Assembly (NCBI GenBank): GCA_945890485.1
Contig: CAMDCN010000028.1
Location: 1 to 47,466, forward strand
DNA: 47,466 nucleotides
Reading direction: 5' to 3'
Source: Candidatus Sulfopaludibacter sp. SbA3
Lineage (GTDB): Bacteria; Acidobacteriota; Terriglobia; Bryobacterales; Bryobacteraceae
Shown here: positions 41,503-47,466 of the stretch, piece after piece
Position numbering within the stretch: position 1 is the stretch's first letter
How the letters are laid out: each line of letters begins with the position of its first letter
The notes under the pieces: model-generated
Seen by the model: the letters and a program-made list of their open reading frames with translations, nothing else
Told to the model about the DNA's origin: nothing
The model's database searches: none
Position numbers and translations under genes: made by a program

Positions 41503-44500
41503 ATGTCTATTCGGCTCGCTATCTTGCTGCTCGTCTCCGCCTTCCTGGGCTATTCGCAACCTAGTCAGGTGGGCCAATGGACGGGGTTGCTGAATTGGCC
41601 GTTCATCCCGGTAAGCGTGGCCCATCTTTCCGATGGCCGGCTCGTCGCGTGGGCCTCCACTCGTCCCACCACATTTCCCGCCGGGGACACGTTCAGCTAT
41701 GCGGCCATCTACGATCCGGCCACCGGACAGATTAGCGCGCTCAACAATACCGCCCATGACATGTTCTGCGCCGGACTGGCCAGCACCGGAGACGGCCGGA
41801 TTGTCGCCTCCGGAGGCGGAAGCGACGTCCGCACCACCTCATCGTTTCCCATGACCACCCGCCAGCCCCAAACATGGTCCCGCCAGTGGGATATGTTGGC
41901 GCGCCGCTGGTACAACTCCTCCATCACTTTGCCCACCGGCAATGTACTGACTATGTGGGGACGAACGGCCGGTACGCTCACGGAACTGTTCAACCAGAAC
42001 ACGAATACCTGGAGCGCCCTGTCGGGCATCTCGCTGCTCAGTTCCGCCGAACCCAATGATGGTGTCGACGACGACAACCAATGGTTCCCCCATCTGCACC
42101 TGATGCCGAACGGCAAGATCCTGATGGCCGGGCCGTTGCGCACCATGCAATGGCTGGACCCCACGGGAGTGGGGAGCGCCCAAGCCATCGGCAACCGGAC
42201 CGCGGACGCAGAACGCCACCGCAAGCTTGGCGCCTCCGTGCAATTCCTACCCGGCAAGATCCTCTTCACCGGTGGCCGCGACGACCGCTATTCACCCCGC
42301 GTGTGGAATACCGCGGTTGTGATTGACGCCACGAGCGGCTCCCCGGTCACGTCAGCCACAGGGAGCATGCAGTACGCCCGGGCCTTCCACAATGTTGTGA
42401 TGTTGCCGAACGGCGAGGTTCTCGCGGTTGGTGGCAACACTAGCGGCACTAAATTCAGTGACGTCGGCGGCGTTACCGTCCCCGAGATCTGGAATCCCAC
42501 CACGGGCCAGTGGCGCTCCGTAGCCACGACGGCCGTTCCCCGGGGCTACCATATGGTCGCGATCCTCCTGCGGGATGGACGGGTTTTTCTTGGCGGCGGT
42601 GGGCTATGCGGCTGCCAAGCCGACCATCAGGATTCGCAGATCTTCTCGCCGCCCTACCTGTTTAATGGAGATGGAACACCGGCTACCCGTCCCGTCATCG
42701 ACCTTGCGGCAGCGGACCTTAAGCCAGGACAAACCTTCGGACTCAAGGGCTCGGACAACATCACGGGCTTCCGTCTCATTCGCCTGCAAGCAACCACGCA
42801 CGGAATTAACTCGGACCAACGCTACATCCCCGTTCCCCATAACAAAGTCTCCACCGGCAACTACAACCTGACCCTCGACTCCAACCAAAGTGTGTTACCG
42901 CCCGGAATGTATTGGCTATTTGCCCTCACTACCTCCGGAACCCCGTCGATCGGCTATCCCGTCCAGATTCATACTCCCACCACCTGGCCCGGCGGCGTGG
43001 CCGGAGAGACCAACCTGGCCAAGGGCAAGCCAGCCACCCAATCGAGCACCGAAGGTTCTGCCGCCGCCTCCCGCGCGGTTGACGACAACACGAATGGAGA
43101 CTTCCAGCAGAACTCCGTCAGCGCTACCGCCGTCCAACCCCAACCGTACTGGCAGGTGGACCTGGGAGCCTCCGCGTTTCTCTCCTCCGTCCGGCTGTGG
43201 AATCGTACCGACTGCTGCGCCAACCAATTGGGCAACTTCCACGTCTTCGTTTCGGATCAGCCGTTCACCGGTACCACGGTCGCACAGTCTCAGGCCCAGT
43301 CCGGCGTGCTCGATCTGGCCTCCCCGGGCATCGCCGGGGTAACCACCACCCTGCCCGTCAACCGGACCGGCCGCTATGTCCGCGTTCAACTGGAAGGCTC
43401 GACGAATCTGCGATTGGCGGAGGTCGAAGTCTTCGGCTCCGTCATCACCAATTTCCCCCCCGAAGTGTCATTCCTGGCTCCCGCCAACGGCGCCAACTTC
43501 ACCGGCCCTCTCTCACTGAATCTGAGCGCTTCGGCCTTCGACCCGGAAGGCAACCTCGCACGGGTCGAGTTCTACGCGGGAACGACCAAACTCGGCGAAG
43601 ACACGACCTCGCCCTATTCGTTCGCCTGGAACAATGCCCCTGTTGGCTCCCACACGCTTACCGCCCGCGCTTTCGATGCCGCGGGTCTTTCGACGACCTC
43701 CTCCCCGGTCAGCATCACCATTGCCCCCCCGCCAGTCACCAACAATCCCCCAACCGTCTCCTTCACCGCACCTGTCAACGGCGCCACCTTCGCCGCACCC
43801 GCCGGCGTCTCGTTCTCCGTTGCTGCCGCCGATCCGGACAACAATCTCGCCCGCGTCGAGTTCTACAACGGCGCCACGAAGATCGACGAAAAAACCAGCG
43901 CTCCGTTTACCTTTAGCGCCGACAATCTAGGTGCCGGCAGTTACACCTTCAAGGCCCGCGCGATTGATGCCGCCGGCCTGTTCGTCGAAACCGACCTTAC
44001 CGTCCGGGTCCTCACCCGTCAACTGCAATCGCTCAAGAACGTGCCCGTTCCGGAGCCCTCGCAACTCGCCGCGTTTGTGAAGAACCGCTCTGCCGCCATC
44101 GCCCTCGGCAAAGCGCTGTTCTGGGATACCCAGGTTTCGAGCGACGGCTCCATCGCCTGCGCCTCCTGCCACTTCCACGCCGGCGCGGACACTCGGATTA
44201 AGAACCAGGCCAACCCGGGCACCTTCCGTTCCGGATCGCCGGTCATGACCTTTGAAGTGTCGCGGACAGGCTCCCCGCACGGACCGAACTATACGTTGAA
44301 ACGCGGCGATTTTCCGCTCCACAGCCTCTCCAACCCGAACGATTCCAACTCCACCATCCTCTACCAGTCCAAGGACGTGATCGGCTCCCATGGCGTATTC
44401 CTCCGCCAGTTCTCCTCGGCCGGAACACCGCCGGAGGAGGATGCGTGTGTCAGCTCGGGCGACCCGGTCTTCGGGGCGTTTCGCCGCGCCACCGGCCGCA

Positions 44501-47466
44501 ATTCCCCCCCCACCATCAACGCCATTTTTAACGTGCGCAATTTTTGGGATGGGAGAGCGAATTCCATCTTCAATGGCGTCGATAGCTTCGGCCCCAGAAA
44601 TGCCGCGGCCGTCGTTTATCGTGGCACCCCACCGGTCGCCGTATCCATTGCGCTCGACAACGCTAGCCTCGCCTCTCAAGCCCTGACGCCTGGCGTGTTG
44701 GCGGGAGAAATGTCCTGTAATGGCAGAACCTGGCCGGAAGTCGGCCGCCGACTCTCGTCAGCTACGCCACTCGCCCGGCAGGCGGTGCTTGCCTCCGATT
44801 CCTCCCTTGGCGCCTATGTCGCGCCGGGCGGCCTCGGCCTCAATCTCACCTACGCTCAGATGATCCAGGCCGCGTTCCAGAACGACCTGCACGCATCCGC
44901 ATCGTCCATCACCGTGAATGGACGGTCCTACTCCCAACTCCAGGCCAATTTCTCTCTCTTCTTCGGCCTTGCCGTCCAACTCTATCAGTCCACTCTCGTT
45001 TCGGATCAAGCGCCGATCGATAACTATTTCGCGCCGTATCCCTCCACTGCGGTGGCCAACGCGAACGCCCTTGACCCAACTGCAGTTACAGGAATGAATG
45101 TGTTCAACGGCAAGGGGCGCTGCGTCACTTGCCACCACGGACCGCAGTTGACCAACGCCGCCACGCCCGCACGCGAAGCCTCGGCCATCGGCGCCCTCGT
45201 CTCCTACATGTTCAACCGGAACGGAGAACCAGCCGCCTACGACCTCGGTTATTACAATATCGGTGTCCGCCCCACCAGCGAAGACCTGGGTCTCGGCGGA
45301 ATCGACCCCTTCGGCAATCCGATCTCCCTCAGCCGCCAAGTCAAATCCGGCATCCGCAAGGACACCTTCACCACCGATCCCTGCACGTTTGAAGCGAGCC
45401 CCTGCATTCCGCTCACCGCCAGCAGCCGCGATGCGGTGGACGGCGCCTTCAAAACTCCTTCCCTCCGCAACATCTCCCTCACGGGGCCCTATTTCCACAA
45501 TGGCTCGGCGGCGACGCTCGAAGAGGTGGTGGAATTCTACAATCGCGGCGGAAACGCCACGGGTACGCCGGCCGCCGACTCCTCGGGCTTCGGCGTCAAC
45601 GCTTCGAATCTACACACCGACATCCGTCCGCTGGGCTTGGCTGAGTTTGAGAAGGCCGCCCTGGTTACCTTTCTCAAATCTGCACTTACCGACGATCGAG
45701 TCCTCTTCGAACGAGCGCCGTTCGATCATCCGTCGCTCCCCTTGGTACATGGGCAGAACGGCTCACAGACGGAACTCCTGCTCCTGCCCGCGGTCGGCAG
45801 CCCGGGACGCGCCCAACCGCTCCCGAGCTTCGAGGAGATCCTCCTCGCTGGCGATCTAGGCTACAGCCCCGCGCCCTCCATCTCGCTTTCTGTACCCGCC
45901 GGGCCAATTGGCGCTCCCGCCAGCGTGGAGTTGACCGCCACCACTACCGGAACCGTTGCCCAAGTCGAGTTCTACAACGGCGCTACCCTTCTCTTTACGG
46001 ATACGACGGCGCCCTACTCCTACACTTGGCCCAATGTCCCCGCCGGCTCCTACGCTGTCACCGCCAGAGCGGTTACTTCGAGCGGTTTCTCCGTGACCAC
46101 CCCCTCCGCCACCGTTACCGTTGGCGCTGCACCAATCATCACCCTCTCCGCTCCCACGACGCCACTCGCCGCACCCGCCAGCGTCGCCCTCTCCGCGGCC
46201 ACCACCGGTACTCTCACCCAGGTCGAGTTCTACAACGGAGCTACCCTCCTCTCCACCGACACGACCGCACCTTACGACTTCACGTGGACCAATGTCCCCG
46301 CCGGTACCTACACCCTCACCGCCAAAGCTATCGCCACCAACGGCCTCACCGCCACCTCCGCCCCGGCCACCGTAACCGTCGGCGCAGCGCCCACCATTGC
46401 CCTCACAGCGCCCACTACGCCACTCGCCGCACCAGCCAGCGTCAGCCTGTCGGCGACCACCACCGGTACCATCTCCCAGGTCGAGTTCTACAATGGAGCC
46501 ACCCTCCTATCCACGAACACGACCGCCCCGTACGCCTACACCTGGACTAACGTCCCCGCCGGTTCCTACACCGTCACCGCGAAAGCGATTGCCACCAACG
46601 GACTCACCGTCACCTCGGCTCCTGCCACCGTAACCGTCGGCGCAGCACCCACCATCGCCCTCACGGCTCCCACGACGCCGCTCGCGGCACCCGCAACAGT
46701 CGCATTGTCGGCTACCGCCACCGGCACGCTCTCCCAGGTCGAGTTCTACAGTGGAACCACCCTCCTCTCCACCGACACGACCGCACCCTACGCCTACACC
46801 TGGACCAACGTCCCCGCCGGCTCCTACATCGTAACCGCGAAAGCGATCGCCACCAACGGCCTCGCGGCCACTTCCGCCCCGGCCACCGTCACCGTCGGCG
46901 CAGCGCCCACCATTGCCCTCACGGCCCCCACGACGCCACTCGCCGCACCGGCCAGCATCAGCCTGTCCGCAACGACCTCCGGCACGCTCTCCCAGGTCGA
47001 GTTCTACAACGGAGCCACCCTCCTCGCTTCCGACACGACCGCACCCTACGCCTACACCTGGACCAACGTCTCCGCCGGCTCCTACACCATCACCGCCAAA
47101 GCGATCGCCACCAACGGACTCACCGCCACCTCCACCCCGGCCACCGTCACCGTCAGTGCCGCTCCGACCGCCCCCACAATCAATCTCACCGTGCCCTCCA
47201 GCCCTCTTGCCGCTCCGGCGACCATCGAACTCTCTGCAGCAACGATAGGTACTCTCTCCCAGGTCGAGTTCTACAACGGAGCTGCCCTCCTCTCGACCGA
47301 CACAACCGCACCCTACGCCTACACCTGGACCAACGTCCCCGCCGGTTCCTACCCGCTCACCGCCAAAGCCATCGCTACCAATGGCTTAACGACGACCTCC
47401 GCACCGGTCACCTTAACCGTCAATCCCCCCGCCACCAGCGGCCCCACCCCCTCCGCCCATTGGCCC
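41503..47466 (+). CDS. Giant exported fusion: copper radical oxidase, discoidin, Ig-like, di-heme cytochrome c peroxidase, tandem Ig repeats (3' end outside window)
   Basis: One frame of 1988 codons from ATG 41503 to the window edge, no stop. A signal peptide (IRLAILLLVSAFLGYS) is followed by a Kelch/galactose-oxidase region (20-385) and the DUF1929-type end (to about 487). The oxidase active site aligns with galactose oxidase: Cys89 (HDMFCAG) for Cys228, Tyr137 (RRWYNSS) for Tyr272, Tyr349-His350 (RGYHMV) for Tyr495-His496, His433 (ATTHGINSDQR) for His581; Trp290 corresponds to Thr155. Next are a discoidin domain (about 503-647), two Ig-like domains (652-835), and a di-heme peroxidase with CASCH (886-890) and CVTCH (1207-1211) plus FKTPSLRNISLTGPYFHNGS. 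Six Ig-like repeats follow. The oxidase would make H2O2 and the peroxidase use it. The residue matches are by eye from memory of the reference protein. Confidence 0.9.
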   Translation, partial: MSIRLAILLLVSAFLGYSQPSQVGQWTGLLNWPFIPVSVAHLSDGRLVAWASTRPTTFPAGDTFSYAAIYDPATGQISALNNTAHDMFCAGLASTGDGRIVASGGGSDVRTTSSFPMTTRQPQTWSRQWDMLARRWYNSSITLPTGNVLTMWGRTAGTLTELFNQNTNTWSALSGISLLSSAEPNDGVDDDNQWFPHLHLMPNGKILMAGPLRTMQWLDPTGVGSAQAIGNRTADAERHRKLGASVQFLPGKILFTGGRDDRYSPRVWNTAVVIDATSGSPVTSATGSMQYARAFHNVVMLPNGEVLAVGGNTSGTKFSDVGGVTVPEIWNPTTGQWRSVATTAVPRGYHMVAILLRDGRVFLGGGGLCGCQADHQDSQIFSPPYLFNGDGTPATRPVIDLAAADLKPGQTFGLKGSDNITGFRLIRLQATTHGINSDQRYIPVPHNKVSTGNYNLTLDSNQSVLPPGMYWLFALTTSGTPSIGYPVQIHTPTTWPGGVAGETNLAKGKPATQSSTEGSAAASRAVDDNTNGDFQQNSVSATAVQPQPYWQVDLGASAFLSSVRLWNRTDCCANQLGNFHVFVSDQPFTGTTVAQSQAQSGVLDLASPGIAGVTTTLPVNRTGRYVRVQLEGSTNLRLAEVEVFGSVITNFPPEVSFLAPANGANFTGPLSLNLSASAFDPEGNLARVEFYAGTTKLGEDTTSPYSFAWNNAPVGSHTLTARAFDAAGLSTTSSPVSITIAPPPVTNNPPTVSFTAPVNGATFAAPAGVSFSVAAADPDNNLARVEFYNGATKIDEKTSAPFTFSADNLGAGSYTFKARAIDAAGLFVETDLTVRVLTRQLQSLKNVPVPEPSQLAAFVKNRSAAIALGKALFWDTQVSSDGSIACASCHFHAGADTRIKNQANPGTFRSGSPVMTFEVSRTGSPHGPNYTLKRGDFPLHSLSNPNDSNSTILYQSKDVIGSHGVFLRQFSSAGTPPEEDACVSSGDPVFGAFRRATGRNSPPTINAIFNVRNFWDGRANSIFNGVDSFGPRNAAAVVYRGTPPVAVSIALDNASLASQALTPGVLAGEMSCNGRTWPEVGRRLSSATPLARQAVLASDSSLGAYVAPGGLGLNLTYAQMIQAAFQNDLHASASSITVNGRSYSQLQANFSLFFGLAVQLYQSTLVSDQAPIDNYFAPYPSTAVANANALDPTAVTGMNVFNGKGRCVTCHHGPQLTNAATPAREASAIGALVSYMFNRNGEPAAYDLGYYNIGVRPTSEDLGLGGIDPFGNPISLSRQVKSGIRKDTFTTDPCTFEASPCIPLTASSRDAVDGAFKTPSLRNISLTGPYFHNGSAATLEEVVEFYNRGGNATGTPAADSSGFGVNASNLHTDIRPLGLAEFEKAALVTFLKSALTDDRVLFERAPFDHPSLPLVHGQNGSQTELLLLPAVGSPGRAQPLPSFEEILLAGDLGYSPAPSISLSVPAGPIGAPASVELTATTTGTVAQVEFYNGATLLFTDTTAPYSYTWPNVPAGSYAVTARAVTSSGFSVTTPSATVTVGAAPIITLSAPTTPLAAPASVALSAATTGTLTQVEFYNGATLLSTDTTAPYDFTWTNVPAGTYTLTAKAIATNGLTATSAPATVTVGAAPTIALTAPTTPLAAPASVSLSATTTGTISQVEFYNGATLLSTNTTAPYAYTWTNVPAGSYTVTAKAIATNGLTVTSAPATVTVGAAPTIALTAPTTPLAAPATVALSATATGTLSQVEFYSGTTLLSTDTTAPYAYTWTNVPAGSYIVTAKAIATNGLAATSAPATVTVGAAPTIALTAPTTPLAAPASISLSATTSGTLSQVEFYNGATLLASDTTAPYAYTWTNVSAGSYTITAKAIATNGLTATSTPATVTVSAAPTAPTINLTVPSSPLAAPATIELSAATIGTLSQVEFYNGAALLSTDTTAPYAYTWTNVPAGSYPLTAKAIATNGLTTTSAPVTLTVNPPATSGPTPSAHWP
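45961..47466 (+). repeat. Tandem 258-bp Ig-like repeats in the fusion gene
   Basis: The codon for Gln in QVEFYNGATLL recurs at 45961, 46219, 46477, 46735, 46993 and 47260. Spacing is 258 bases four times and 267 once (three extra codons, APT, in the last spacer). Each unit encodes 86 residues with shared blocks TTAPYAYTWTNVPAGSY and AKAIATNGLT. The DNA is nearly identical between units, implying recent duplication. Two older, diverged copies of the domain precede the peroxidase (RVEFY at 43564-region and 43855-region). The array continues past the window. Confidence 0.9.

Follow-up and report, generated by a model that had tools for sequence, protein, structure and literature searches.

A bacterial copper radical oxidase joined in one chain to a MauG-like di-haem domain, and a second architecture of the same pairing

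Why would a bacterium make a copper radical oxidase (CRO) and a di-haem enzyme as one polypeptide? The question arises at the end of the window, by which we mean the whole stretch of 47466 bases analysed here: an open frame runs without a stop from an ATG at position 41503 to the contig end at 47466 (1988 codons), and since the frame runs off the contig, at an array of Big_7 domains, the C-terminus of the protein is missing. How bacterial CROs outside Streptomyces are activated and protect themselves from peroxide is, to our knowledge, an open question, and so are the targets of most MauG-like enzymes; one chain with both enzymes makes the two questions addressable in a single purified protein. 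According to the available part of PMC9770985, CROs require one-electron oxidation to their tyrosyl-radical form, which in Colletotrichum is carried out by a co-secreted peroxidase. A sequence-only reading of this locus had proposed that it joins a galactose/glyoxal-oxidase domain to a di-haem cytochrome c peroxidase, in a covalent form new to that reader; peroxide would then be channelled inside a single exported protein, either for protection of the cell or to drive the oxidation of a surface polymer.

The joining of the two enzymes in one continuous frame (Table 1) was borne out: the galactose-oxidase-type, F5/8-C and CCP_MauG families named in that reading all score above their curated Pfam cut-offs (Glyoxal_oxid_N, 50.6 bits against 37.5; GO-like_E_set, 63.6 against 25; F5_F8_type_C_2, 52.0 against 27.8; CCP_MauG, PF03150, 67.7 against 25.6), and two CxxCH haem motifs are found, at residues 886 and 1207, which places the haem part in the CCP_MauG superfamily. 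Big_7 is recognised in eight stretches (325.7 bits against a cut-off of 24.1), and about 190 residues of Ig domains separate the CRO from the di-haem domain. Export with glycan- or surface-type accessory domains, which had also been expected, agrees with the signal-peptide-like start (assigned by eye), the F5/8-C domain and the Ig domains.

Table 1. Features of the fused gene in the window, and loci elsewhere that bear on it (residue numbers refer to the window protein; GalOx, galactose oxidase; CCP, cytochrome c peroxidase)
Feature	Coordinates	Strand	Basis or remark
Fused gene, CRO - F5/8-C - Big_7 x2 - MauG-like di-haem - Big_7 array	41503..47466	+	3' end cut by contig end
Signal-peptide-like N-terminus	41503..41556	+	by eye from sequence
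Copper radical oxidase (CRO) domain, residues 18-492	41554..42978	+	Pfam and galactose oxidase alignment
Cys89 (GalOx Cys228, cofactor Cys)	41767..41769	+	alignment
Tyr137 (GalOx Tyr272, cofactor Tyr)	41911..41913	+	alignment
Tyr349-His350 (GalOx Tyr495-His496)	42547..42552	+	alignment
His433 (GalOx His581)	42799..42801	+	alignment
F5/8 type C (discoidin) domain, residues 511-633	43033..43401	+	Pfam
Two Big_7 Ig domains between oxidase and haem parts, residues 653-about 836	43459..44010	+	Pfam; second boundary by eye
MauG/MbnH-like di-haem domain, residues 840-1450	44020..45852	+	Pfam, NCBIfam, alignments, predicted fold
Haem motif 1, CASCH, residues 886-890	44158..44172	+	
Glu1069 of invariant EM motif	44707..44709	+	alignment
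Haem motif 2, CVTCH, residues 1207-1211	45121..45135	+	
Tyr1346 (position 294 of MauG; CCP 1iqc has Met)	45538..45540	+	alignments
258-bp repeat array (5.8 copies) encoding Big_7 domains	45912..47421	+	reaches near contig end
Second-form loci	L117:782-6274, L159:4490-9763, L164:7215-14138, L216-L221, L231:6797-12010		
MbnP-MbnH fusion genes	L216:3971-5860, L217:3802-5616, L218:4788-6551, L219:10664-12484, L220:11206-13056		directly upstream of CRO/di-haem fusions

Residues 18-489, which cover the whole CRO length, align with galactose oxidase 9g8h (E 2.7e-86), and galactose oxidase 1gof aligns as well (E 1.5e-64). The copper and cofactor residues picked out by the sequence-only reading are exact to the residue, the positions in the 9g8h alignment being those we take to be the GalOx residues of Table 1. 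These ligands are conserved in 11/11 rows of the window's form of the join, in 9/9 rows of a second form described below and in 66 to 68 of the 68 rows not seen joined. Judged by its sequence, the oxidase domain is an intact CRO (AA5), with its propeller, its E-set and all five copper and cofactor ligands. One GalOx feature is missing: at the position of Trp290 the 11 rows of the window's form have Ser (8), Thr (2) or Asp (1). However, Trp is rare there in other bacterial rows too (1/9 of the second form, 3/68 of the unjoined), so Trp290 is no defining mark of the bacterial CROs sampled; three residues towards the N-terminus, 11/11 rows of the window's form do have a Trp (TMWGR/TWWGR). The Trp290/Arg330 pair is named a key indicator of galactose activity in the part of PMC11267884 available, and because the window CRO has no Trp at this position, galactose is an unlikely substrate. 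The domain scores 111.8 bits with the GlxA equivalog NF052501, below the cut-off of 800, and it is the sole PF09118 protein found in the window's genome.

Might the join be an accident of assembly? We searched 257 genomes of the window's order for PF09118, together with 14 control genomes, and found such a protein in 33 of the former and none of the latter. The join was seen in 13 of these 33, with the window's form in 12 and the second form in one (G138). The window's form occurs in 11 of the 19 genomes searched in the genus (its own included) and in G137, from another genus of the family; each of the 11 PF09118 genes found in the genus, like that of G137, has this di-haem domain after the CRO. 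In 10 of the 12 genomes a single open frame spans the two haem motifs; in G097 the contig ends after the first motif, and the G084 record changes frame there. The dN/dS ratios are low in both enzymes: 0.055 (CRO) and 0.058 (di-haem) for the window against G096, where dS is near saturation (1.7-1.8), and 0.027 and 0.043 for the less saturated pair G099 and G100. These values indicate that both joined enzymes, whose active sites are complete in sequence, are under purifying selection. As 12 genomes carry the same order and selection acts on both enzymes, the join is no assembly accident, and a chimera, a frameshift or a sequencing error (the last considered by the earlier reading itself) can be rejected.

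The records are nevertheless incomplete in places. Two fused genes (L178:1-5068 and L174:3144-8015) are broken in the di-haem part, by a frame change (G084) and a stop codon (G088), which may reflect either assembly error or decay. The G089 contig starts within the CRO, and the frames of L163, L170, L171 and L176 also leave their contig ends, those of L163 and L171 within Ig-type repeats. Two relatives have an in-contig stop, namely G093 (1924 aa) and G137 (2182 aa, with C-terminal ricin-B lectin domains). Since genomes were sampled, only some of the apparently unjoined CROs were viewed in wide context and some of their frames run off their contigs, all counts of the join are lower bounds.

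Assigning the di-haem domain (about 610 residues, with insertions) to a type is a more delicate matter. A profile search gave CCP 1iqc (3.6e-33), MbnH 6e1c (1e-30) and MauG (7.3e-19), and a single-sequence search gave MbnH (1.8e-18), 1iqc (4.5e-18) and MauG (5.1e-9). Among NCBIfam families the domain comes closest to MbnH and MauG, with scores far under either equivalog cut-off (TIGR04039, the best NCBIfam profile of the haem part, 110.0 bits against 362.85; TIGR03791, 84.3 against 443.85). In a fold search with an AlphaFold model of the domain (pLDDT 61.2, pTM 0.73), MbnH and MauG lead by E-value, the Y294H MauG structure being among the matches, whereas by target-length TM-score the CCPs (up to 0.56) exceed MauG (0.45-0.51) and MbnH (0.37-0.40); the fold match thus demonstrates the superfamily only. 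A RoxA-like rubber oxygenase was considered and rejected (PF21419, 22.2 bits, below the cut-off of 26.7). The window's genome also encodes a stand-alone di-haem paralogue (L005, G000:C24:53335-54186; a frame of 563 aa) and four shorter CCP_MauG proteins.

While whole-domain comparisons do not decide, one residue disfavours a classical CCP. We aligned 20 di-haem domains, that is, the window's and 19 relatives (seven more of the window's form, the same-genome paralogue and stand-alone proteins in Pseudomonas, Pantoea, Nitrospira, Chloroflexi, methanotroph and other records). All 20 have Tyr where the CCP 1iqc has Met. Domain residues 472-512 align with MauG 259-299, which sets Tyr1346 on residue 294, presumably the axial ligand in MauG, and we infer that Tyr1346 would ligate the C-terminal haem of the window domain as its distal ligand. 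Thus the classical CCP feature, Met in this role, is absent and the MauG/MbnH feature, Tyr, is present. The Glu of the EM motif, which we take to be the catalytic acid that cleaves peroxide in this family, is invariant in 20/20 domains, and the Trp of the FWDGR motif, which we assume to lie between the two haems, is conserved in at least 90% of them (it is Val in G137). Because overall sequence and fold similarity fail to separate MauG from CCPs, it is on the Tyr that the label MauG-like rests. Of the "di-haem cytochrome c peroxidase" proposed earlier, the two-haem CCP_MauG membership stands, but the naming as cytochrome c peroxidase has become doubtful.

With Tyr in place of Met, it is likelier that peroxide is used to oxidise a protein site than that it is reduced with donor electrons. 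This speaks against plain detoxification, in which a peroxidase fed by a small cytochrome would shield the cell or the CRO from peroxide, a role suggested by the sequence-only reading and one that we regard as improbable. The superfamily score, the conserved Glu and CCP E-values and TM-scores at least equal to those of MauG would all suit such a role; however, the Tyr is found in every domain aligned, and an exported protein of this kind would seem to have no obvious electron donor.

The sequence-only reading regarded the covalent form as new, and our searches of open-licence PMC papers turned up none that describes a CRO and a di-haem enzyme in one chain; it is, however, no lone oddity, as the join exists in two forms, which carry different haem domains. 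In the second form the CRO is followed by a PKD domain, a YncE-like propeller and a shorter di-haem domain, with further lectin or Ig domains; its propeller and di-haem parts weakly match a hydrazine synthase beta-gamma profile (60-76 bits, against a cut-off of 1250), and the axial position is His in 9/9 motifs (L221 not among them). It was found in ten records from three phyla: in G138 and G545, which share the window's phylum; in G650 (Aquabacterium) and G671, two of the 17 PF09118 genomes among 349 searched in that order; in all five PF09118 proteins of Verrucomicrobiota (5/240 genomes); and, on a plasmid of Comamonadaceae OTU4NAUVB1, in the protein UST56369.1, whose record names it a "discoidin domain-containing protein".

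A quick CRO tree of 88 rows (built after removal of duplicates, of rows shorter than about 380 residues and of loci L006 and L010; L182, whose contig is cut at both ends, was labelled unjoined and excluded from the AU tests) places the window's form in a single clade (SH-aLRT 99). The second form requires four changes on this tree, of which starred branches force three. A single clade of all 20 joined rows is rejected (p-AU 3.7e-13), and so is one of the second form alone (p-AU 1.7e-5). As the joined CROs are not one clade, the join was either made several times, or made and then lost. The occurrence of this pairing of chemistries in two architectures and several CRO lineages argues against the view that the two enzymes act apart and share a chain merely for export and anchoring. 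We consider this highly improbable, even though the Ig linkers and the many carbohydrate-binding domains suggest free shuffling.

Copper-related genes adjoin the second form in eight of its ten records, these eight (all but L117 and L164) being those whose neighbours were examined by profile or by similarity. An SCO gene adjoins it or lies near it at L159, L221 and L231, and in 5/5 Verrucomicrobiota an MbnP-MbnH fusion gene lies upstream, identified by profile at L218 (MbnP 84.2 bits, cut-off 27; CCP_MauG 177.7) and by similarity in the other four. About 1.4 kb downstream of the second-form gene, Aquabacterium encodes a further, separate protein that is related to the window's haem domain and carries lectin domains; G375 has a CRO gene and, directly upstream of it, a di-haem gene, the two being unjoined. 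A Comamonadaceae plasmid (L235:3350-8995, CP099603.1) has the order multicopper oxidase, hypothetical, SCO and di-haem "cytochrome-c peroxidase", the last being a stand-alone relative of the window's haem domain; at two other plasmid relatives no named copper gene adjoins. Among 68 loci of stand-alone relatives (L051-L118), a CRO frame was seen within the stretch examined at L117 only, and at the methanotroph loci L114 and L116 no CorA/MopE-like neighbour was recognised by eye from frame starts.

The neighbours of the window gene are of another kind: upstream lie genes for a serine hydrolase (also upstream at L040 and L050), a DUF6702 protein and an M1 peptidase, none of them copper genes. At L042:4250-8802 and L045:4254-8677 a PSCyt1-PSCyt2-PSD1 gene and a DUF1501 gene lie directly upstream of the fused gene, and upstream genes of matching size are found at L043 and L048. 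This variation bears on the view that the CRO is a peroxide source only, whose H2O2 the di-haem domain would spend on a residue of a partner protein (forming kynurenine from Trp, or a crosslink, in MbnH or MauG style) or on a surface polymer bound by the lectin-like domains. MauG and MbnH do act on other proteins, MbnH is the best NCBIfam profile of the haem part (albeit under its cut-off), and the MbnP-MbnH gene adjoins every Verrucomicrobiota join; CorB/SACCP, too, is proposed to form kynurenine in CorA/MopE, as far as the available part of PMC3912023 goes. However, no constant partner gene was seen beside the window's form, where either the serine hydrolase or the PSD1 and DUF1501 genes lie upstream, and we hold this view to be rather unlikely. 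Yet another possibility is that the haem domain serves as an electron outlet from reduced Cu(I) in place of O2, making the CRO a cytochrome-wired dehydrogenase. The axial His of the second form, the PSCyt1-domain genes upstream at L042 and L045 and the fact that c-type haems are common electron relays could be cited in its favour; still, the Glu that cleaves peroxide is conserved, one would expect a low potential of a ferric haem with a Tyr ligand, and we find this even less probable than detoxification.

What, then, may the two enzymes do together? Similar joins elsewhere in bacteria suggest that here a copper enzyme carries its own peroxide-driven helper. Our leading, and tentative, reading is that of a secreted CRO with its own peroxide-using partner, which would activate or mature the copper-radical site and remove peroxide; the use of CRO-made peroxide elsewhere ranks next, ahead of detoxification, an electron outlet and independent action. 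In such a protein the CRO would oxidise an alcohol or aldehyde, perhaps on a glycan gripped by the F5/8-C and other lectin-like domains, and release H2O2, which would react at the N-terminal haem; the oxidising power would be stored across the two haems in MauG fashion, and then spent on one-electron oxidation of the neighbouring CRO, from resting Cu(II) to the active Cu(II)-tyrosyl radical, and/or the di-haem domain would aid the oxidation of Cu(I) to Cu(II) and the maturation of the Tyr-Cys cross-link, peroxide being consumed in the course of activation. A MauG-like di-haem enzyme turns H2O2 into a long-lived oxidant that withdraws electrons from distant residues, and hence would suit radical formation or Cu(I) oxidation, with the H2O2 provided by the CRO. 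The narrower version, in which peroxide from the protein's own CRO primes the Tyr-Cys radical of the same chain (building or restoring it) through this long-range oxidant, is unlikely on present evidence. If true, peroxide would drive activation in a closed loop, one arrived at with two different di-haem modules, and a MauG-like enzyme would have a tyrosyl-cysteine cofactor as its natural target.

On one hand, the activation reading is favoured by the conserved CRO ligands, Tyr and Glu, by joined CROs that do not form one clade, by the different haem domains of the two forms, by the adjoining genes of G375, by the copper-related neighbours of the second form, by the gene order on plasmid L235 and by the CorPerox-CorAlcOx and DtpA-GlxA precedents. 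On the other hand, the CRO activators known to us (horseradish peroxidase and a class II peroxidase) are all single-haem, the enzymes are separated by the Ig residues, and MauG and CCPs are not separated overall. The AlphaFold model of the joined region (of the relative G137, without F5/8-C, 1199 residues, stopping short of the haem domain's end) does not usably position the oxidase and haem sites with respect to each other, at pTM 0.45, mean pLDDT 58.5 and less than 50 for most of the haem part. The join is seen in only 13 of the 33 PF09118 genomes of the order, the window's neighbours are not copper genes, and L117 alone among L051-L118 has a CRO frame. Finally, the role put forward for DtpA in PMC4736821 is to oxidise Cu(I) and to clear peroxide, not to form the radical, and added copper rescues the mutant. 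Coupling of the CRO to the di-haem domain, which we infer, would give the latter an activator role that the sequence-only reading had not considered. It would also offer a lead towards self-activating oxidases in place of the horseradish peroxidase now added to CROs in the laboratory (PMC9770985, PMC11267884, both as available in part).

Neither the parts nor the notion of a CRO that works with a peroxidase is new; what appears to be new is their covalent union, with a MauG-like partner and in two architectures. Galactose oxidase (1gof, 9g8h; AA5) shares with the window protein the CRO fold, the five ligands and an F5/8-C domain, which precedes the oxidase in galactose oxidase but follows it here. 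MbnH and MauG (6e1c, 3l4m) likewise have two c-type haems, Tyr at the axial position and the catalytic Glu, but their PDB chains have 388 and 373 residues, whereas the window domain is far longer and fused to a CRO. The CorB/SACCP di-haem proteins of methanotrophs (PMC3912023, PMC3621798) belong to the same superfamily, sit at the surface or in the periplasm and are linked to copper; their partner is CorA/MopE, not a CRO, and the likeness to the window domain is one of descriptions, not of sequences. The parallel with Streptomyces drawn by the sequence-only reading finds support in PMC4736821: GlxA, likewise a CRO from a bacterium, relies there on a haem peroxidase as well as on the Sco copper chaperone, and DtpA is required for GlxA maturation and consumes GlxA-made peroxide, but DtpA is a separate, Tat-exported enzyme of DyP type, while the window's haem enzyme is fused to its CRO. 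In the fungal tandem Perox-AlcOx of Colletotrichum and Magnaporthe (PMC9770985, available part), a CRO is again accompanied by a haem enzyme that converts its resting Cu(II) state to the radical form, with EPR evidence for activation of CorAlcOx by CorPerox; there, however, the two are separate proteins from head-to-head genes and the peroxidase is of class II, whereas the window has one bacterial chain with a MauG-like di-haem domain. By analogy, a single fused chain would fill the role that separate peroxidases have for fungal AlcOx and Streptomyces GlxA.
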